From Staphylococcus xylosus NJ (GTDB lineage Bacteria; Bacillota; Bacilli; Staphylococcales; Staphylococcaceae): a stretch of 64,000 nucleotides of DNA. This document shows positions 53,995-64,000 of the stretch, one piece after another. Position numbers and translations under genes: made by a program. The stretch covers positions 62,001-126,000 of the forward strand of contig NZ_ANMR01000019.1 of NCBI RefSeq assembly GCF_000338275.1, in the 5' to 3' direction. Position 1 is the stretch's first letter. Every line of letters starts with the position of its first letter. The notes beneath the pieces were generated by a model. That model worked only from the letters and a program-made list of their open reading frames with translations. It did not search any database and had not been told where the DNA came from.

Positions 53995-54182
53995 AAAATT
54001 ATTATAAGTTAATTACTTGTATAAGTAAAATATAAATCATCTCGAAAACGTAAACACTTTCTTAATAATCAGAAACATAATATTTATTGGAGGAAATTCA
54101 AATACTGCTGTTAATGGTTTTCTTTAGTAAGCAAGATACTGTAAAAGACATTAAACCACGTAACTCCCTTAACCCAACCAAA

Positions 54183-54209
54183 AATAAACCGCCCCGAAAG
54201 GCGGTTTAT
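54183..54209 (-). terminator. GC-rich terminator, minus strand
   Basis: ATAAACCGCC / GGCGGTTTAT hairpin with GAAA-type loop and TTTTTGG on the minus strand. No annotated minus-strand gene precedes it, so it may end another small RNA; a hairpin GAAGTA-TCTCCAG-TACTTC lies just upstream of it. Confidence 0.6.
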
Positions 54210-54531
54210 CACGAATGAAGTACTGGAGATACTTCATATATATAGCGTAACATATAAAAATTAGTATTGCCACGCCTATATTGTTTAATTCATTTTTATA
54301 TTAAGTTTTTAAATACAGTTACTATAGCCGTAAGGTTATTTCTACAAAAAATATCTGACTTTATGATCATATAGTTTAAGTCTCTAAATAAAAAGGTAAA
54401 TAAAAGTATTATAATAGGAGTCCATCACACCTATTAACCAAAATACAGTCTACCTATGTTCTATTTTAAGACGGCTCATTAATAACACACTTTTATAATT
54501 TAAACAGTACTTACTAAAAGGAATGATTAGT

Positions 54532-54972
54532 ATGCAATATACACAATACTTACCTGGAACATGGCACATTATAGCTTCTACATTTAAAATGTGGACTTCA
54601 GGCAAAAAAACAAATCCTTCTATCACTTATTCAATAATACAATCTCATCCCTTAAGAATTCATGATGAAGTAACATACCAAACGCGAAATAAATCAAAAT
54701 CCATTGTCGGTTACGATACACTAGATGACGACCAATTCAATTGGAGGGGTAAAGGCATTTTAAGACTATTTTCGAGCAAGTGGGGCATTATTTATATTGA
54801 TGATGAAGTGCTAATTATTAATTTTTCTGCTACTTTGGCAACACCATCTGGGATGGATATACTTTTACGTAATAAGCAAAATGTTGATTCATATAAAAGT
54901 CAAATACTAAATCATCCAGAAAAATTCAACTTAAACACCAAAACTATACAGAAATTTAAATGGTTACTTTAA
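54532..54972 (+). CDS. Conserved protein of unknown function (lipocalin-like?)
   Basis: 146 residues from ATG 54532 (AAAAGGA nine bases upstream; the ATG at 54523 abuts that site). LPGTWHIIASTFKMWTSGKK at the N-terminus and alternating beta strands (DEVTYQTRNKSKSIVGYDTL, WGIIYIDDEVLIINFSATLA) suggest a beta-barrel of lipocalin type. No signal peptide. Function unknown. Confidence 0.65.
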   Translation: MQYTQYLPGTWHIIASTFKMWTSGKKTNPSITYSIIQSHPLRIHDEVTYQTRNKSKSIVGYDTLDDDQFNWRGKGILRLFSSKWGIIYIDDEVLIINFSATLATPSGMDILLRNKQNVDSYKSQILNHPEKFNLNTKTIQKFKWLL

Positions 54973-55040
54973 TTTTAGACTAAAAACAGTTACATATAGA
55001 TTAAATTACTAATCTTCATGTCTATTAATACTAATAAAAC

Positions 55041-55078
55041 AAAAATAACCCCGTAGGTATATGCCTACGGGGTTTTCA
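55041..55078. terminator. Bidirectional terminator, rpsR
   Basis: 14-bp perfect stem AACCCCGTAGGTAT / ATGCCTACGGGGTT between convergent genes. Confidence 0.93.
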
Positions 55079-55088
55079 GATACAATAT

Positions 55089-55106
55089 CTATTATTGTTC
55101 TTCTTT
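55089..55106. other. Island attachment core at the rpsR 3' end
   Basis: On the rpsR strand AAAGAAGAACAATAATAG, covering the last codons and stop. From memory this is the rpsR-type SaPI attachment core (SaPI4 class) with one terminal mismatch. No second copy was seen in the window. Confidence 0.55.
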
Positions 55107-55334
55107 AACATATGGTAATAATGCCATATGACGAGAACGTTTAATAGCTAATGTCAACATACGTTGATATTTAGCTGAAGTACCTGTTACACGACGTGGT
55201 AAAATTTTACCGCGTTCTGAGATAAAACGTTTTAATAATTCTGTGTCTTTATAGTCGATGTGTGTAATACCGTTTGCTGTGAAATAACAAACTTTTTTAC
55301 GACGACGTCCGCCTCTTCTTGGTCCACCTGCCAT
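55092..55334 (-). CDS. rpsR: 30S ribosomal protein S18
   Basis: 80 residues, full length and typical ([20 protein letters not shown] to [12 protein letters not shown]). AAGGGAGGC ribosome site. In staphylococci rpsR normally follows rpsF and ssb closely; here neither is upstream. Instead there are 239 non-coding bases with its own promoter and then an NRPS operon. It may be a second copy brought in by, or split off by, an integrated element. Confidence 0.97.
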
Positions 55335-55497
55335 GGTAACTGCCTCCCTTTAAGTTATTTTTTAATTACCGTCTAATTTTAATGTTTATTAATCATTTAT
55401 TATGATTCATGTGTTTTTATTTTCTATTATTAAAAGATTTATAATGCGTGTGAAACATTGTATTAAATCTTTGCGTGTGTGTGCATGTGTAATATTA

Positions 55498-55526
55498 ATC
55501 TTATAAAATTATAGACTATTTGTCAA
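55498..55526 (-). promoter_or_regulatory. SigA promoter of the lone rpsR
   Basis: TTGACA, 17 bases, TAAGAT on the minus strand, giving a leader of roughly 155 bases before rpsR. Confidence 0.6.
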
Positions 55527-55573
55527 CACGTTCAGAATAAATAAACAAGCTGATTTTGAAATAAATTAAATAT

Positions 55574-56269
55574 CTAACTATTAAGTACTAATTTTACTTC
55601 TTCACTTATATCTTTATAATGATTATTTATAAAGAAATGATCACCTTCAAAGAATCGATAATCTACTTTACCTTTGGTCAGGTCCGACCATTTATACAAA
55701 GTATTAGCACAAATGGAATCTTGTTTACCTACAAATACTGATAAATTGATATCTACTTGTCTTTCCTTGGGCTTATCGCAATAATAATCAATTGCTAAAA
55801 AGTCATTTTTCAATGCTGGTTTCACAAGTTGCCATAACTCTTCATGATTTAATACTTCTTCAGATGTACCGCCTTTTTCTCTTATAAACTGTTTAAATTC
55901 TTCATCATCCATGGCTTCTATATCATTATATTTATCCAAATAGCCAATCGGTTCACTCGCACAGAGGAACATATGCTTTGGTCGATAACCTAATTGATCC
56001 AATTTATAATAAAGTTCATATGCTAATATTGTCCCTAAACTGTAGCCTAATAGAATAAATTCTTCAGGTTTTTCATTAATAATTTGCTTAACTAAGTCAT
56101 TTACCATATCATCAATGCTATCTAACGCCTCTTCGATTAACCTTTCACCACGTCCCGGTAATTCTAATGGCTTAAATTGAATATAACTTGGTAAATTATT
56201 CTTCATTGGATAATATAATGCCTTATTTCCACCTGCAAATGGTATACAAAATAATGTTGTTTTAACCAT
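55574..56269 (-). CDS. Type II thioesterase of the NRPS operon
   Basis: 231 residues, alpha/beta hydrolase of the GrsT/SrfAD type. Catalytic triad visible: S77 in LLGYSLGT, D184 in FVGKQDS, H211 in EGDHFF. Removes wrong acyl groups from carrier domains. Starts 11 bases after the phosphopantetheinyl transferase gene, third gene of the operon. The aureusimine operon of S. aureus has no such gene. Confidence 0.92.
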   Translation of the reverse strand: MVKTTLFCIPFAGGNKALYYPMKNNLPSYIQFKPLELPGRGERLIEEALDSIDDMVNDLVKQIINEKPEEFILLGYSLGTILAYELYYKLDQLGYRPKHMFLCASEPIGYLDKYNDIEAMDDEEFKQFIREKGGTSEEVLNHEELWQLVKPALKNDFLAIDYYCDKPKERQVDINLSVFVGKQDSICANTLYKWSDLTKGKVDYRFFEGDHFFINNHYKDISEEVKLVLNS

Positions 56270-56280
56270 ATACTCGCCCC

Positions 56281-56913
56281 TTAAAGTATAAATTCTGTAT
56301 TAAAATTCTTTGTTATATCTAACATCTCTACTTCTAAATCGTGGTTATCCACGTCTAAAATCACTGACAATGCATATTTTCCATAAAAAATCTCATGAAA
56401 AAATGAACACCGTTGTATCACTTCATCTTCAGTTTCAATAAGTTGATAACGACCTTGAACTGGTGTAATAGAAAAAGAATCTAATGGTTTATACATGCCC
56501 ATACCAAGTAATTTTAAATAGCATTCTTTCATCGTCCACACTTCAAAAAAACGGTTAAATTGAGAAATTGTACTTTGTGCCTCGGTAATGTATCGATATT
56601 CTAATAATGCAAAGTATTTTTGGGCAATATCTAAATCTATATTTTCAATTTTTTCCACATCTACGCCCACGTTCGTATCACTCACAACACATACTGAATA
56701 ACCATCTGTATGAGACACATTGATGTGTATATCTTTAGGTAATTTTAATAACGGTTTACCATGTGTATTTTCGTCAAATTGAATATGCTCAAATTGCATT
56801 CCTGTGTGTGCTCGTACACAATAATACTTAAACCATTTAGAGTATTTAGGATGCCTCTTAAGATTATGATAATCAAAATTCTGCGTATTTAATACATATA
56901 TCGTTATTTTCAC
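56281..56913 (-). CDS. 4'-phosphopantetheinyl transferase, Sfp type
   Basis: About 210 residues. Core motifs VGVDVEKI (D87, E89 counted from the upstream GTG) and EVWTMKECYLKLLG (W, K, E). Converts apo carrier domains of the neighbouring NRPS to holo form using CoA. Start is GTG 56913 (GGAAG seven bases upstream); GTG 56919 is two codons earlier. Lies 77 bases after the NRPS stop. Confidence 0.92.
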   Translation of the reverse strand: MKITIYVLNTQNFDYHNLKRHPKYSKWFKYYCVRAHTGMQFEHIQFDENTHGKPLLKLPKDIHINVSHTDGYSVCVVSDTNVGVDVEKIENIDLDIAQKYFALLEYRYITEAQSTISQFNRFFEVWTMKECYLKLLGMGMYKPLDSFSITPVQGRYQLIETEDEVIQRCSFFHEIFYGKYALSVILDVDNHDLEVEMLDITKNFNTEFIL

Positions 56914-56990
56914 GGTCACACTTCCACATCACTTAATCAATCAAAACAAATGAAGTAGCAAGTTATTATTTTGCTACTTCATAGTTGTAA

Positions 56991-59900
56991 TTAGAAATTA
57001 TTTTTTGGGTGGCTAATCATTTTAGATAATGTTTCATCTTCAGTAGGTTGCCACTTGAAGTTTAACTTTTCAAGTATGAAATTAGTTTTAAAGTCTAATA
57101 CTTCAAAATGAGATTTGTTGAAAATATTGTTATCTAGTACACCTGTATGCAATAGGAAATCGTTGATTTGATCGCTCATTACATCTTCTTTAATACAATG
57201 CATTAAGTAATCCACAAATTCATTCCACTGTACATCTTTAATATGGTAATTATTTTGATTATACACATGCATCAATTGTTTAAGTGAAAGGTGGTTATTA
57301 TTATATATATGATGGATCTCGTTATTTAGTTGATTATTTTTAATCAATTGGCTACATGCTTTAGCTGCCTGATCAACAGGAGTAAATTCTAAATCATCAT
57401 TTTCTAAATCTGGGAATATTTCTAGGTTTCTAAATGATTTTATAATGCTATAGAAAGCATTGTTTTCTTCATTCTTCTGGAATACTCCTGTACGAGAATC
57501 ACATTGTAAATTACCTAATCTATAAATATTTGTTTCTACACCTTGCTCTCTACTAGCAATCAATACTTTTTCAGCTTCTATCTTAGTATCTAAGTAAACA
57601 TTATTCATTACCTGACCTAAATCTAAGTCATGTTCTGAAAATGTTAACTGTGCTTTCTCGTCTACCTTACCTGAAGCAATAGAAATTGTAGACATGTGGT
57701 GAATCTCTTTAGATTGATTGTATTTTGCAAATTGAATTAGTTGTTCAATACCGCCAACGTTTGCACCGTATGAAGCATCTGTTGTCGCAAAGTGGCTAAC
57801 ATTCGCCGCAGCGTTCACAATCATATCGATATTTTGAGATAACGACTCGTAAGTTTCTGATGTCATGCCTAGTTTTTCTAACTCGATATTACCTTCAATG
57901 ATATGGATTCTTTCTGCATATTCAGGGTCAATTTGAGATTCAAAGTAATAAATCCAGTTACGATATAATTTCGTTTCTCCGTTAACCTCTTTATTACTTC
58001 TTACCATGACATAAATATTGAAGTCTGTATCTTCTAATAAATTGTTCAACATGTATATACCAAAGAATCCAGTAGCTCCTGTGAGCAATACATTTTTACC
58101 TTGTTTAACCGCTCCAGAGCTAATAACTTCATAATTTTCTACACTTTCTTCTTTATATTCATTAATTTCTTGAATAAATTCACTACTGAATTGATGTCCT
58201 TGTGCAGTATCTATATTTTTAAGCATTTCTAACTTAGTTAGAATATTTGTTTGATCTTTTGCAGCTATAGACTCACTGATACGATCAATCGTTTGTAGTT
58301 CGAAAATATCTTTAATTGAAATGTTATATGATTTTGATAATAACGATGTCAGTTTAATCGCTATGATAGAATCGCCACCAATTTCAAAGAAATTGTCATA
58401 AACACTTATGCTATCAGTGTTTAATACTTCTTTCATTGCTTGAACAACATCTGCTTCGATTTCATTTCTAGGTTCAACAAATTCCTGTCTTTCAACTTCA
58501 ATTTCAGGTAATGCACGCTTGTTTAACTTACCATTAGATGTAACCGGCAATTGTTCTATTTGCGTCATATAAGCTGGCACCATATAGTCTGGTACTTTGC
58601 GTGCAAGTTCAGTCTTAATATCAGCAAATGAAATTGGCTGATCAGCAACAAGATAGGCACAAATCGCTAGTTCTTCGCTAGCCATTGGTTTAGCAATGAC
58701 ACCTGCATCAGAAATGTTTTCAATACGTAATAAGTGGCTAGAAATTTCACCAAGTTCAATACGATAACCACGAATTTTAACTTGTTCGTCTATACGACCT
58801 AAATATTCTATTTCTCCATCTGTTGTCCATTTTGCTAAGTCACCTGTACGGTATACTTTTCCTTCACCGAATGGATTATCAATAAACTGTTGTTGTGTTA
58901 ATTCAGGACGATTGAGGTAACCATTTGTTACAGCAACACCTGCAATACAAAGCTCTCCTGGAACGCCGATACCTGTATGTTGATTATTATTATTTAGAAC
59001 ATACATTTGCACATTAGCAATTGGTCGACCAATTGTTATAATATCGTACTCTTGATTTGGTGGTAACGGATTATAAGTTACCTCAATTGATGCTTCTGTC
59101 GGACCATATAAATCAATTAGCAATGTATCATTGTGCTGACCGATTATCGAATTAAAGCGGTTTGCTTGTTCAGATTTCAGTGCTTCACCTGTTGCAAGAA
59201 CTGTATTAATAGATGCTATTTCAGCCACTTCATTTGTTGATTTAATATAATCAACAAACACACCTAACATCGAAGGTACAAAATGAATCATAGTAATTGC
59301 ATGTTGTTGAATTAATGATGTGATTTTACTTGGATTTCCTTCTTCTCCAGACGGCAGTAACACGGCTTGCGCACCTACCATAGCGAATCCGAAAATTTCC
59401 CAAACTGATACATCAAATGTATATGGTGTTTTAAACATGATGATATCTTCTTCAGTAAAGTCATACTCATCAATCATCCAATTCAGACGGTTCAACACAC
59501 CTTCGTAAGGAACAACCACCCCTTTAGGGTTACCTGTCGTACCTGACGTATATATTACATACATTAAATCAGATACATCTGTAATGTGGTTTAAATTGTC
59601 CATTGATAAATTAGCAAATTCATCTTTCTCAGTTACGTCAATTACATTTCTATCAAATTCAATACTTGTATCTAATGGGCGATCTGTAATCAACAATGTT
59701 GGCTGACTATCATTCAAGATATAGTTAATACGGTCACTAGGTTGACTAGGATCCATTGGTACATAAGCACCGCCAGCTTTTAATATTCCGTATATACTTA
59801 CCATCATTTCTATGCTACGATTCGTCATTAAACCTACAAGTGAATTAGCTTCTACCCCTTCTGCACGTAATTTATGAGCTAGTTGGTTCACACGTACATT

Positions 59901-62900
59901 AAGTTCTTTGTAAGTTAAACTTTCACCTTCAAATGTGATGGCTGTTTGATTTGGTGTATTCGCAACTTGTTTTTCAAAACGTTCAACAAATGTTTGATTA
60001 TTAGGTAAATCGGCATACGTATCGTTAAATGCATCGAGAATCTGTGTTCTCTCTTCTTCTGTAGTCATATCAATGTCACTAATATTTTGGGCTGGATGTT
60101 GTACCACTTCGCTTAATATTTTCAGATAGTGATTCAACATACGTTCAACTGTTTGTGGTTCAAATAATTCTGCAGCGTATTCTAGTGACACTTTGTATGC
60201 TTCGTTATCTTCAATCATCATATTTAAATCAAACTTAGCTTTTGTGTTTGTTGCTTGTTTTTCTTTAATGTCCCAATCTTCAATTTGAAGATCTTGTGTT
60301 TCATTATTTTGTAACGTGAATAGCACATCAAAGAGTGGGTTACGTGTTAAGTCGCGTCTTTCTACAACCTCATCCACTAATTCTTCTAATGGATACTCTT
60401 GATTATCATATGCTTTCAGTGCAGTATCTCTCACTTCATCTAAAAATTGATTGAATGCTTTGTTATTTTCAGGATAAGCACGCATAGGCAACGTATTAAC
60501 AAACATACCTAATAAATTATCTGTATCTTGGTGTGTACGCCCTGAGATTGGGCTACCTATAACCACATCTTCTTGTCTACTATATTTATGCAATAAAATC
60601 ATAAATGAAGACAGTAAAATCATATAGTCTGTACTATTAGTTCTTTGAGCCAATTCATGTAATGCATCTCTTGTCTCTTTAGGCATTTCAGCTGATATCG
60701 TTTTACCTGTAAAGCTTTGTTGTTTAGGTCTTGAATGATCATAAGGTAAATCTAATACTGGTGCTTCATCTTCGAATTGAGACAACCAGAAAGCACGTTG
60801 ATCACTTAAATCACGACTATGCATCCATTCACTATAATCTTTGTATTGTACTTTTAGCTGTTCTAAAGTTCTTTCGTGATATAGTGCGATAAATTCTTTA
60901 ATAATTAGATTAATAGAGAAACCATCTGAAATAATATGGTGAATATCAAAGAGTAAGATATGACGTTTGTCAGCCAATTTAACGATTTTCACTCTTAATA
61001 ATGGTGAGTGTCTTAAATTAAATGGTCTTACAAAGTTATTCAATAATGTTTCATAATCATCTATATCTGTTTCTTCATAATCTACAGTTATATTTGCCTG
61101 TTCATCTATAATTTGTACGGGCTCCCCGTCTATCGTTTCAAAATGAGTTCTCAATACTTCGTGACGTTCCACTAAGCTTTGGAATACATCTTCAACACGT
61201 GCTACATCAACGACACCATTAATTTCTAGCATACTTGGCATATTGTAAGCCGTTTGACCTTGCACCATTTCATTCAACACATATAAGCGTTTTTGCGGAG
61301 AAGATGCCAGATAGTATGACTTCGATTCAGCTATAGGAATATTTTGTCCATCCAAGCTACTTTCCTGGTCATTTAATACTTTTCCAAGTTGTGCAACTGT
61401 AGGACTTTCAAATATTACTTTTAATGGTAAACGTATACCAGTTTCACCTTCGATTTTATTAATCACATTGATGGCTTTTAGTGAGTGTCCTCCTACTTCA
61501 AAGAAATTATCATATATACTTACTCGTTCAATATTTAATACTTCACCAAAAATATTTGTGAGCATTTCTTCTATCTCATTTGTAGGAGCAACATAATTTT
61601 CACTTTCAACCTGGATTTCAGGCAATTGCTTTTTATCTAATTTACCATTTGATGTTACTGGTAAAATATCGATTTGAGTCATATATGTTGGTACCATATA
61701 ATCTGGTAAATTTTGATTAAGTTGTGATTTAATCTCATCAAAGTCAATACTTTCATCTGAAACTAAATAAGCGCAAATTGCCAATTCTTCACCAGCCATT
61801 GGTTTAGCAACGACTGCTACGTCTGAAATCAGATTAATCTGACGTAATAAACTTTCAATTTCACCTAACTCAATACGATAACCACGAATCTTAACTTGCT
61901 CATCAATACGGCCAAGATATTCAACGTTACCTGTCGTACTCCATTTTGCCAAGTCGCCCGTACGATATAATTTACCTTCACCAAATGGATTATCAATAAA
62001 TTTCTCGTCCGTCAAATCCGGTCGATTTAAGTAACCTTTCGTAACACCTACGCCACCGATACATAATTCTCCTGGAACGCCGATACCCATTAAACTTTCA
62101 TCTTCATTCATAATATAAGCCTGAATGTTTGCGATTGGACGACCAATTGGGATCTTGTCATACGTTTCACCCGGCGCACATGGGTAATAAATCACTTCGA
62201 TTGAAGCCTCTGTTGGACCATATAAATCAATCAATAATGAATTGTTTGGTTCGCCAATTAAAGCATTAAATTGATTTACTTGTTCTGCTTTTAATGCTTC
62301 ACCACTAGCAAGTACATAGTTAACTGTAGCAATATCTTCTACTCTATTAGTTGATTTAATAAAGTCGATAAACACACCTAACATAGATGGCACAAAATGA
62401 ACCATTGTAATGTTGTGATAATCAATAAGTGAAGTTATTTTTTCAGGATTACTTTCTTCACCTGAAGGTAAGAGTATTGCTTGACCGCCAACCATAGTTG
62501 GTCCGAATACCTCCCAAACAGAAACATCAAACGTAAATGGTGTCTTAAATAAAATCGTATCTTCATTGTTGATGTAATATTTATCAATCATCCAATGCAG
62601 ACGGTTCATTACTCCTTTATACGGTACCATAACGCCTTTTGGTTTACCTGTTGTACCAGATGTATAAATAACGTACATCAAGTCTTTGACATCTGTAACC
62701 TTGGATAAATTATCTGTTGATTGTGTCTCTACTACTGAATCGTCTGTTAAGTTCAATACGGCTTTATTAAAGTCGATTGTTGCATCTAACGTTTGGTCAG
62801 TTAACAGTACGTTTGGTTGACTATCTCCTAAAATGTAGTTGATACGATCACTTGGATAGTTTGGATCGATAGGAACATAAGCACCACCAGCTTTGAGAAT

Positions 62901-64000
62901 ACCGTAGATACCAATCATCATTTCTAATCGACGATTCGTCATCAAGCCGACGAGCGTATTAGGTTGAACACCTTCAATACGTAAATAGTTCGCAAGTTGG
63001 TTCGCTTTAGCATTTAACATTGCGTAAGTTAAACTTTCACCTTCATAGGTAATAGCTATTTCATTAGGTGTTTTGGCTACTTGTGCTTCAAAAATTTCCA
63101 CAAAAGTTTTAGTGTTGTTGAACGGAACAGCTGTATCATTGAACTCATTAAATATTTTAGCCTCTTCTTGTTTGGTAATCATTTGAAGATCACTGATTTT
63201 TTGTTCAGGTTGTTGAACACTATGCTTCAATATTTCTAAATAATGATCTAACATACGCGCGACTGTATCTTGATTAAACAATTCTTCTGCAAACTCCAAT
63301 GAAATCTTATAACCATCATCATCAAAAATCGTCATACTTAAATCAAATTTCGCGTTAGTCGTTGAAGGTTCTTTCTGTTCAATAGACCAATCTTCTATTT
63401 GAAGACTTTCTGTTTCGTTGTTTTGCAATGTGAATAGTACATCAAATAATGGATTACGTGTTAAGTCACGTGTTTCAACTATTTCATCTACAAGAGCTTC
63501 TAACGGATATTCTTGATTATCGTATGCTTTCAATGCAGTATCTTTGACTTCAGAGAGTAATTGATTAAACGTTTTACTTCTCTCTGGGTATGCACGCATA
63601 GCTAACGTATTTACAAACATACCTAGCATATTTTCTGTATCTTTGTGTGTTCTTCCTGAAATAGGGCTACCGACAACAATATCTTCTTGGCGACTATACT
63701 TATGCAATAATACATTAAATGAAGCCAATAGAATCATAAAGTCCGTGCTACCTGTTGTCTGTGATAATTCTTGTATCTCTTGACGTAATTCTTCCGGTAC
63801 TTCAACACTTACAGATTTTCCTGTGTAACTTTGTTGAATAGAACGCGCGTGATCATAAGGTAAATCTAGAACTGGTGCATCTTCTTCAAATTGTGATAAC
63901 CAGAAGGCGCGTTGATCACTTAAATCACGTGTGTGCATCCATTCACTATAATCTTTATATTGCGCAGTCAAGGTTTCTAACGCTTGTCCGTGATATAAAG
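56991..64000 (-). CDS. Nonribosomal peptide synthetase, (C)-A-T-C-A-T-reductase, 5' partial
   Basis: Open to the right edge, so the N-terminus is outside the window; more than 2326 residues are visible. Domains, numbered from the ACT codon region at 63971: C-terminal half of a condensation domain (1-265); A1 (287-785, YTSGTTGKPKG); carrier T1 (GGHS, S830); full C domain (884-1305, HHIISDG at 1011, LCL-like); A2 (1327-1825, YTSGTTGNPKG); carrier T2 (GGDS, S1868); terminal NAD(P)H reductase (1957-2320, GATGFFG, catalytic Y2126/K2130). Pocket residues read DVWHLSLIEK (A1) and DVWHLTLIEK (A2), both close to the serine code. Release by reduction predicts a peptide aldehyde. Confidence 0.95.
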   Translation of the reverse strand, partial: LYHGQALETLTAQYKDYSEWMHTRDLSDQRAFWLSQFEEDAPVLDLPYDHARSIQQSYTGKSVSVEVPEELRQEIQELSQTTGSTDFMILLASFNVLLHKYSRQEDIVVGSPISGRTHKDTENMLGMFVNTLAMRAYPERSKTFNQLLSEVKDTALKAYDNQEYPLEALVDEIVETRDLTRNPLFDVLFTLQNNETESLQIEDWSIEQKEPSTTNAKFDLSMTIFDDDGYKISLEFAEELFNQDTVARMLDHYLEILKHSVQQPEQKISDLQMITKQEEAKIFNEFNDTAVPFNNTKTFVEIFEAQVAKTPNEIAITYEGESLTYAMLNAKANQLANYLRIEGVQPNTLVGLMTNRRLEMMIGIYGILKAGGAYVPIDPNYPSDRINYILGDSQPNVLLTDQTLDATIDFNKAVLNLTDDSVVETQSTDNLSKVTDVKDLMYVIYTSGTTGKPKGVMVPYKGVMNRLHWMIDKYYINNEDTILFKTPFTFDVSVWEVFGPTMVGGQAILLPSGEESNPEKITSLIDYHNITMVHFVPSMLGVFIDFIKSTNRVEDIATVNYVLASGEALKAEQVNQFNALIGEPNNSLLIDLYGPTEASIEVIYYPCAPGETYDKIPIGRPIANIQAYIMNEDESLMGIGVPGELCIGGVGVTKGYLNRPDLTDEKFIDNPFGEGKLYRTGDLAKWSTTGNVEYLGRIDEQVKIRGYRIELGEIESLLRQINLISDVAVVAKPMAGEELAICAYLVSDESIDFDEIKSQLNQNLPDYMVPTYMTQIDILPVTSNGKLDKKQLPEIQVESENYVAPTNEIEEMLTNIFGEVLNIERVSIYDNFFEVGGHSLKAINVINKIEGETGIRLPLKVIFESPTVAQLGKVLNDQESSLDGQNIPIAESKSYYLASSPQKRLYVLNEMVQGQTAYNMPSMLEINGVVDVARVEDVFQSLVERHEVLRTHFETIDGEPVQIIDEQANITVDYEETDIDDYETLLNNFVRPFNLRHSPLLRVKIVKLADKRHILLFDIHHIISDGFSINLIIKEFIALYHERTLEQLKVQYKDYSEWMHSRDLSDQRAFWLSQFEDEAPVLDLPYDHSRPKQQSFTGKTISAEMPKETRDALHELAQRTNSTDYMILLSSFMILLHKYSRQEDVVIGSPISGRTHQDTDNLLGMFVNTLPMRAYPENNKAFNQFLDEVRDTALKAYDNQEYPLEELVDEVVERRDLTRNPLFDVLFTLQNNETQDLQIEDWDIKEKQATNTKAKFDLNMMIEDNEAYKVSLEYAAELFEPQTVERMLNHYLKILSEVVQHPAQNISDIDMTTEEERTQILDAFNDTYADLPNNQTFVERFEKQVANTPNQTAITFEGESLTYKELNVRVNQLAHKLRAEGVEANSLVGLMTNRSIEMMVSIYGILKAGGAYVPMDPSQPSDRINYILNDSQPTLLITDRPLDTSIEFDRNVIDVTEKDEFANLSMDNLNHITDVSDLMYVIYTSGTTGNPKGVVVPYEGVLNRLNWMIDEYDFTEEDIIMFKTPYTFDVSVWEIFGFAMVGAQAVLLPSGEEGNPSKITSLIQQHAITMIHFVPSMLGVFVDYIKSTNEVAEIASINTVLATGEALKSEQANRFNSIIGQHNDTLLIDLYGPTEASIEVTYNPLPPNQEYDIITIGRPIANVQMYVLNNNNQHTGIGVPGELCIAGVAVTNGYLNRPELTQQQFIDNPFGEGKVYRTGDLAKWTTDGEIEYLGRIDEQVKIRGYRIELGEISSHLLRIENISDAGVIAKPMASEELAICAYLVADQPISFADIKTELARKVPDYMVPAYMTQIEQLPVTSNGKLNKRALPEIEVERQEFVEPRNEIEADVVQAMKEVLNTDSISVYDNFFEIGGDSIIAIKLTSLLSKSYNISIKDIFELQTIDRISESIAAKDQTNILTKLEMLKNIDTAQGHQFSSEFIQEINEYKEESVENYEVISSGAVKQGKNVLLTGATGFFGIYMLNNLLEDTDFNIYVMVRSNKEVNGETKLYRNWIYYFESQIDPEYAERIHIIEGNIELEKLGMTSETYESLSQNIDMIVNAAANVSHFATTDASYGANVGGIEQLIQFAKYNQSKEIHHMSTISIASGKVDEKAQLTFSEHDLDLGQVMNNVYLDTKIEAEKVLIASREQGVETNIYRLGNLQCDSRTGVFQKNEENNAFYSIIKSFRNLEIFPDLENDDLEFTPVDQAAKACSQLIKNNQLNNEIHHIYNNNHLSLKQLMHVYNQNNYHIKDVQWNEFVDYLMHCIKEDVMSDQINDFLLHTGVLDNNIFNKSHFEVLDFKTNFILEKLNFKWQPTEDETLSKMISHPKNNF

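Follow-up and report, generated by a model that had tools for sequence, protein, structure and literature searches.

A serine-coded, reductase-terminated peptide synthetase operon between ssb and rpsR in Staphylococcus xylosus and its predicted N-acyl-oligoserine aldehyde

The operon and its site

Here we describe a non-ribosomal peptide synthetase (NRPS) gene of Staphylococcus xylosus NJ that lies with two accessory genes between ssb and rpsR. The stretch of DNA analysed, called the window throughout, comprises 64,000 nucleotides (contig NZ_ANMR01000019.1, our contig C19 of genome G000, 62001-126000), and the NRPS gene continues on the same contig beyond it. An unbroken open frame on the minus strand runs past the right edge of the window, which holds the 3' part of a gene of ~16.8 kb encoding 5598 aa. 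Motifs and Pfam matches give the domain order as five successive modules of condensation (C), adenylation (A) and carrier (T) domains, with a module spacing of ~1038 residues, followed by a reductase (R). In the window frame, the Pfam families are Condensation, AMP-binding, PP-binding and a terminal NAD_binding_4 reductase (9.1e-48). A first-pass annotation of the window had already recognised a reductase rather than a thioesterase on the last module, and had predicted at least one further module beyond the edge; reading rightward on the contig gave three more and the rest of C4. It had also placed the gene in an operon with a phosphopantetheinyl transferase and a type II thioesterase, which the Pfam matches in Table 1 bear out. 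The gene order is ssb upstream, then NRPS, transferase and thioesterase, with rpsR downstream, and from this order and the spacing of the genes we infer that the three share one transcript. A 13-bp inverted repeat lies at window positions 56950-56982, in the gap that separates the end of the NRPS gene from the beginning of the transferase gene.

Table 1. Features of the locus in window coordinates
Feature	Coordinates	Strand	Remarks
NRPS gene, five modules, 3' part	56991..64000	-	whole gene to 73787; TTG start behind ribosome-binding site AGGGGGG
R, terminal thioester reductase core (NAD_binding_4)	57357..58085	-	GATGFFG and YxxxK
T5, carrier motif, last module	58368..58379	-	GGDS
A5, adenylation domain	58914..59978	-	code DVWHLTLIEK (serine-type)
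C5, condensation domain	60036..61316	-	clusters with ordinary chain-extending C domains
T4, carrier domain	61380..61562	-	Pfam
A4, adenylation domain	62028..63092	-	code DVWHLSLIEK (serine-type); limits from the 1038-residue module spacing
C4, condensation domain	63153..64000	-	split by window edge, extends to 64433
4'-phosphopantetheinyl transferase	56281..56919	-	PF01648, 4.1e-16; would load carrier domains
Type II (stand-alone) thioesterase	55574..56269	-	PF00975, 2.9e-38; GYSLG and GDHFF; would clear misloaded carriers
rpsR (S18)	55092..55334	-	one flank of the insertion
ssb	74293-74808		other flank, beyond the window
Predicted rpsR promoter	55498..55526	-	TTGACA-17-TAAGAT, consensus match; TTGACA box unchanged in 11/11 insert loci

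The distance between ssb and rpsR was measured in all 84 Staphylococcus genomes. The two genes were found to lie 44-125 bp apart in 73 genomes and 12.8-19.0 kb apart in 11, and in each of these 11 insert loci the three genes recur in unchanged order, with an unbroken NRPS frame. The carriers include S. xylosus, S. pseudoxylosus, S. shinii, S. gallinarum, one strain of S. equorum, S. arlettae and two further Staphylococcus; judging by a protein name, S. succinus is probably another. In S. equorum BC9 (G028) the site is empty. Searching with R across the genus revealed a match of any kind (E up to 0.001) in 34 of the 84 genomes, and the close family comprises the serine-coded genes of 12 genomes together with paralogues. 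Further, a protein search with residues 1-450 of the NRPS, which considered only proteins 0.55-1.75 times the query length, returned eight protein clusters of this family, with 683 members in total (2+3+38+306+47+84+199+4).

Over its 5598 codons, the window's NRPS gene has a ratio of non-synonymous to synonymous substitution rates (dN/dS) of 0.052 with S. shinii, 0.059 with S. pseudoxylosus, 0.063 with S. xylosus and 0.090 with genome G078, and by this measure it is under purifying selection. Signals for transcription were also observed at the borders of the insert. Downstream of ssb there is a terminator-like hairpin, a promoter-like site lies ahead of the NRPS gene (16 such sites in the stretch, 9.1 expected), and the promoter-like site before rpsR is one of 21 in the stretch where 14.9 are expected. 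These sites, as matches to consensus with a conserved TTGACA box before rpsR, would fit an insert that brings a start of its own and supplies rpsR with a new promoter. Behind the promoter-like site, the rpsR leader (window 55335-55530, minus strand) contains an inverted repeat, AAAGATTTA...TAAATCTTT, that is also present at the same place in the 10 other loci; the leader folds no better than shuffled sequences (z -0.57). The idea that the rpsR promoter is a copy of the rpsF promoter was dropped after a short-word BLAST of four loci (best E 0.065). A T-box or other riboswitch ahead of the NRPS gene was likewise rejected, as an Rfam scan of locus L008 (E up to 1) gave one sub-threshold tmRNA match inside the gene, and a scan of window positions 54000-58000 gave two sub-threshold matches.

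Serine-type pockets and module number

The ten pocket positions of each A domain were read twice, by motif and then from a multiple alignment, with Escherichia coli EntF, a serine-activating enzyme according to its record, as the yardstick. In this alignment EntF reads DVWHFSLVDK, and the codes of the window's gene are DVWHLSLIDK in both A1 and A2, DVWHFSLVEK in A3, DVWHLSLIEK in A4 and DVWHLTLIEK in A5. The code is serine-type in all five of these domains and in all 51 A domains of the 12 oligoserine genes (the gene of locus L066 in G028, which ends at a contig end, was excluded from the count), and the remaining 4 of the 55 aligned A domains, which come from paralogous or orphan genes, read DPWVLGVIDK. 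Residues D235, V236, W239, H278 and K517 are constant in 51 of 51 family domains, and positions 299, 301, 322, 330 and 331 vary. Overall, the window gene's five A domains are 58-74% identical to each other, and the persistence of a serine-type pocket in domains that otherwise diverge argues for selection on serine.

The two codes that fall in the window are identical to those of the first-pass annotation, which had derived the C-terminus of the product from two serines. This is in line with the last two modules being serine-coded, but the claim was too narrow. With a serine code in every one of the five modules, we predict a homo-oligoserine instead of a peptide that just ends in Ser-Ser, and going by the codes we think it very probable that five serines are joined. 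An apparent likeness of A5 to linear gramicidin synthetase (845 bits) was discarded when the alignment showed the score to be the sum of two separate matches.

The number of modules differs between carriers, with five in 8 of the 11 insert loci and three in the other 3 (S. equorum, NAM3COL9 and S. arlettae). A two-module serine version was found in genome G027, away from ssb-rpsR and next to a short-chain dehydrogenase/reductase (SDR) gene and a stand-alone C domain. In an A-domain tree of 10 of the 16 genes in the code alignment, the last three A domains of the five-module genes (A3, A4 and A5) pair in order with A1, A2 and A3 of the three-module genes, and a separate clade holds the remaining A1 and A2 of the longer genes. 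This pairing suggests that the three- and five-module forms differ by the gain or loss of two modules close to the front. Separately, the two-module gene of G027 (L062, 3182-10630, minus strand) has nearly identical A1 and A2 domains and a paralogue-type neighbourhood, as if a module had recently been duplicated. Paralogues were observed elsewhere as well: three genomes (L063, L064 and L065) carry a single-module C-A-T-R synthetase of 1442 aa, whose R is 58-59% identical, flanked by a C domain-like protein of 424 aa and an SDR-like protein of 272 aa (neighbours named by eye). The S. xylosus NJ genome itself has, on contig C22 (L010, 8702-13078, minus strand), an orphan NRPS of 1458 aa with the domain order C-A-T-C and no reductase, which reads DPWVLGVIDK and lies next to an SDR-like gene.

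Outside the genus, R-like matches were found in 164 of 398 genomes sampled from the class. Ten non-staphylococcal R-like loci were read for their codes (E 4e-88 to 8e-61, not strictly the ten best). A domains were present in 8 of the 10 and absent by motif from two, the fourth code position was gapped in three, and none of the 10 A domains read had a serine code. With no serine-coded A domain in this sample, an origin of the gene outside Staphylococcus was rejected as a candidate.

Chain start, release and the predicted product

The R domain keeps its motifs GATGxxG and Y-x3-K in all 11 loci. Its identity to other staphylococcal NRPS reductases, mostly of about AusA length, is 25-34%, and the solved chains nearest to it are the NRPS reductase 6vtj, the reductase of the aureusimine synthetase AusA (4f6c, 5.7e-29) and MxaA (4u7w). 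MxaA, which we take to be a four-electron reductase, points to the alternative that R reduces twice, in which case the operon would make an N-acyl-pentaserine alcohol with a serinol end, a surfactant or signal and not a reactive aldehyde; the sequence of R does not separate the two outcomes. However, AusA, also among the nearest solved reductases, performs a two-electron reduction and releases an aldehyde (PMC8210680; this paper and the others below are cited from excerpts, to which our statements about them are confined), and we regard the alcohol as unlikely. Rather, going by these relatives, R would probably release an aldehyde. A beta-hydroxy aldehyde product of this kind may lose water to an enal.

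At the other end of the chain, the first condensation domain, C1, is of a separate type. It shares 23-26% identity with C2-C5, which are 68-74% identical among themselves. For a C-domain tree, domains were detected with a hidden Markov model built from the window gene's own five C domains in 7 of 17 staphylococcal loci and 14 of 101 other proteins, picked by eye, and domains shorter than 300 residues were excluded. In this tree C2-C5 are placed with extending domains, and one clade (support 1.0) unites C1 and its relatives with the C domains at the N-termini of P0010, P0011 and P0016. P0016 has 3599 aa, four C-type domains and the first code DAQDLGVVDK, a layout and code that we take to be surfactin-like; its last C-type domain clusters with the most diverged, epimerisation-like ones. 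Another protein, P0050, was considered as a first surfactin subunit and found not to be one. Given that C1 is of its own type and clusters with the N-terminal domain of surfactin-like P0016, we consider it likely that the chain is N-acylated, with C1 as a candidate starter-type domain. Since C1 is not preceded by a carrier domain, and the operon has no NRPS gene further upstream, the donor would come from elsewhere, most simply as an acyl-CoA.

Based on these data, we hypothesize that the operon makes an N-acyl-pentaserine aldehyde, released by R and possibly acting as a protease inhibitor, a proposal that we hold to be evenly poised between right and wrong and that draws on the domains, codes, motifs, genomic site and selection described here. 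The five carrier domains would receive their phosphopantetheine arms from the transferase, and C1 would put an acyl group, probably a fatty acid whose donor is encoded outside the operon, on Ser1. C2-C5 would then append Ser2 to Ser5, all of them L because no epimerisation domain was found in the NRPS, and R would release N-acyl-Ser4-serinal while the thioesterase keeps the assembly line clean. By the same route, the three-module relatives would give N-acyl-Ser2-serinal and the two-module relative N-acyl-Ser-serinal.

Several observations weigh against an N-acyl-pentaserine aldehyde. Eight N-terminal C domains (P0012, P0030, P0034, P0037, P0039, P0050, P0054 and P0055) fall outside the C1 clade, so that an N-terminal position alone proves nothing, and the comparison of C1 was with surfactin-like P0016. 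A profile search of the PDB with C1 gave no clear starter-domain match, and its fold, predicted from only 8 sequences, was too poor for use (predicted local distance difference test, pLDDT, 61; predicted template modelling score, pTM, 0.46). In 2 of the 11 loci (G029 and G068; L056 and L057, three-module), C1 reads NHLISDGW, with Asn in place of the first His. The three-gene operon contains no fatty-acyl ligase, transporter or resistance gene. In the pockets, the Asp of EntF at position 331 is replaced by Glu in A3-A5, A5 has Thr at 301, and A5 of G031, G072 and G078 has Pro at 299.

The loss of the first His in two loci would suit an idle or vestigial C1, a free N-terminus and an aldehyde that forms a macrocyclic imine, or its hydrate, as in lugdunin, and both aureusimine and lugdunin, as staphylococcal reductase-NRPS products, cyclise after aldehyde release (PMC8210680). 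Against this, the gene begins with a C domain in which all 11 ssb-rpsR loci conserve the motif HLISD[AG]W (HHLISD[AG]W in 9). AusA, for comparison, has no C domain in front and starts with its A domain, and we judge such a cyclisation to be improbable. The first-pass annotation had itself proposed an imine or pyrazinone, which requires a free N-terminal amine, but C1, with its surfactin-like grouping, precedes A1, and we do not favor that part of it; with its N-terminus capped, the aldehyde could not close to an imine. It is also possible that the codes mislead and that some modules load another small or hydroxylated residue, yielding a mixed peptide aldehyde. A code is a prediction and not an assay, and the five variable positions do differ between modules, but D235, V236, W239 and H278 are the same in 51 of 51 domains and the serine-activating EntF reads alike, so a mixed peptide has little to recommend it. 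Finally, the operon might be cryptic or decaying and make nothing under natural conditions, as the module number that varies by species, the orphan C-A-T-C NRPS without a reductase in the same genome and the lack of a described product in the open PMC literature, among the matches listed, could suggest, but dN/dS values of 0.05-0.09 over 5598 codons and a frame unbroken in 11 of 11 loci make this very doubtful.

Possible function, known systems and significance

If the operon does make an N-acyl-pentaserine aldehyde, inhibition of a protease would be a tentative role for it, one that we think less likely than not and that is argued by analogy. Gut commensals make dipeptide aldehydes that reportedly inhibit host proteases and may in some cases be stabilised by an N-acyl tail (PMC8210680), and ruminopeptin is reported to act in its aldehyde form (PMC12327764). 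Ruminopeptin and these gut compounds are likewise peptide aldehydes from NRPSs (PMC8210680, PMC12327764); the gut NRPS products are dipeptides, whereas the products predicted here have 2, 3 or 5 residues, all serine. The predicted product also has the same layout as decanoyl-PTANA-aldehyde, a fatty-acyl pentapeptide aldehyde with a small last residue that is listed as a signal peptidase inhibitor (PMC9360617), but that compound is synthetic and composed of other residues. That N-acyl-Ser-Ser-Ser-Ser-serinal, its length set in nature by gain and loss of whole modules (2, 3, 5), inhibits bacterial type I signal peptidase as a natural counterpart of decanoyl-PTANA-aldehyde is speculative, and we would not expect it to be so; a homo-oligoserine lipopeptide aldehyde would be a chemotype that did not turn up in the literature searched. 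A third Peptidase_S26 match was found in 6 of the 11 carriers (G053, G078, G072, G031, G005 and G083, in the last on contig C2). The same search in 10 non-carriers gave 2 matches in 9 genomes and 4 in G069, where two adjoin each other. Self-protection by an extra signal peptidase was rejected, as S. xylosus NJ itself has only 2 Peptidase_S26 matches, like 9 of the 10 non-carriers, which counts against the protease idea.

Among known systems, the synthetase of aureusimine (AusA/PznA) comes from the same genus and is an NRPS with a homologous terminal reductase. AusA has two modules, and the dipeptide aldehyde that it releases closes to a pyrazinone (PMC8210680), whereas the window's NRPS has five serine modules and a C domain first, and the earlier statement that it is unlike aureusimine synthetase therefore stands. 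A serine-only scaffold is also found in enterobactin and amphi-enterobactin (EntF, AebF). Enterobactin-type products are ester-linked lactones with catechols, released by a thioesterase from one module used repeatedly. Unlike such a single module ending in a thioesterase, the window's NRPS has one module per serine, five in all, and ends in R; no catechol gene is present in the three-gene operon, and the genome at large was not searched for dihydroxybenzoate genes. In amphi-enterobactin, a fatty acid is carried on one serine and is loaded as an acyl-CoA (PMC9470620). The likeness to surfactin-type synthetases consists in C1, through its clustering with the N-terminal C domain of P0016. Surfactin is composed of mixed residues and is released by a thioesterase as a lactone, unlike the reductase and serine-only codes of the window's NRPS. 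The synthetase of lugdunin is made up of several proteins. It too is a staphylococcal NRPS with a terminal reductase, but its thiazolidine macrocycle, three consecutive valines and epimerisation domains have no counterpart here (PMC8210680).

Our search of the open PMC literature (subscription papers lie outside its scope) returned, among the matches listed, no paper on the operon's product, which agrees with the earlier remark that no described staphylococcal product of this type is known. For S. shinii, one of the carriers, a genome paper reports three NRPS clusters, none of them matching a known product (PMC12388102). In the same species, proteins of 1442 and 3023 aa have been discussed as stand-alone dltA copies, dltA_1 and dltA_2 (PMC11161930). 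We take both to be NRPSs, although neither has the 5598 aa of the window's gene, and from its equal length we take the 1442-aa protein to be the C-A-T-R paralogue described above. NRPS genes of this type are thus easily missed, for instance when their proteins are labelled dltA (PMC11161930).

The component parts of this system are known; what is unusual is an all-serine assembly line ending in a reductase, the ladder of two, three and five modules, and the fixed site between ssb and rpsR. Two of the carriers, S. xylosus and S. equorum, are common food bacteria. If our reading is correct, the operon would add a staphylococcal reductase-NRPS chemotype beside aureusimine and lugdunin, and would represent a natural experiment in chain length, in which one fixed genomic site holds either three or five modules for the same residue.

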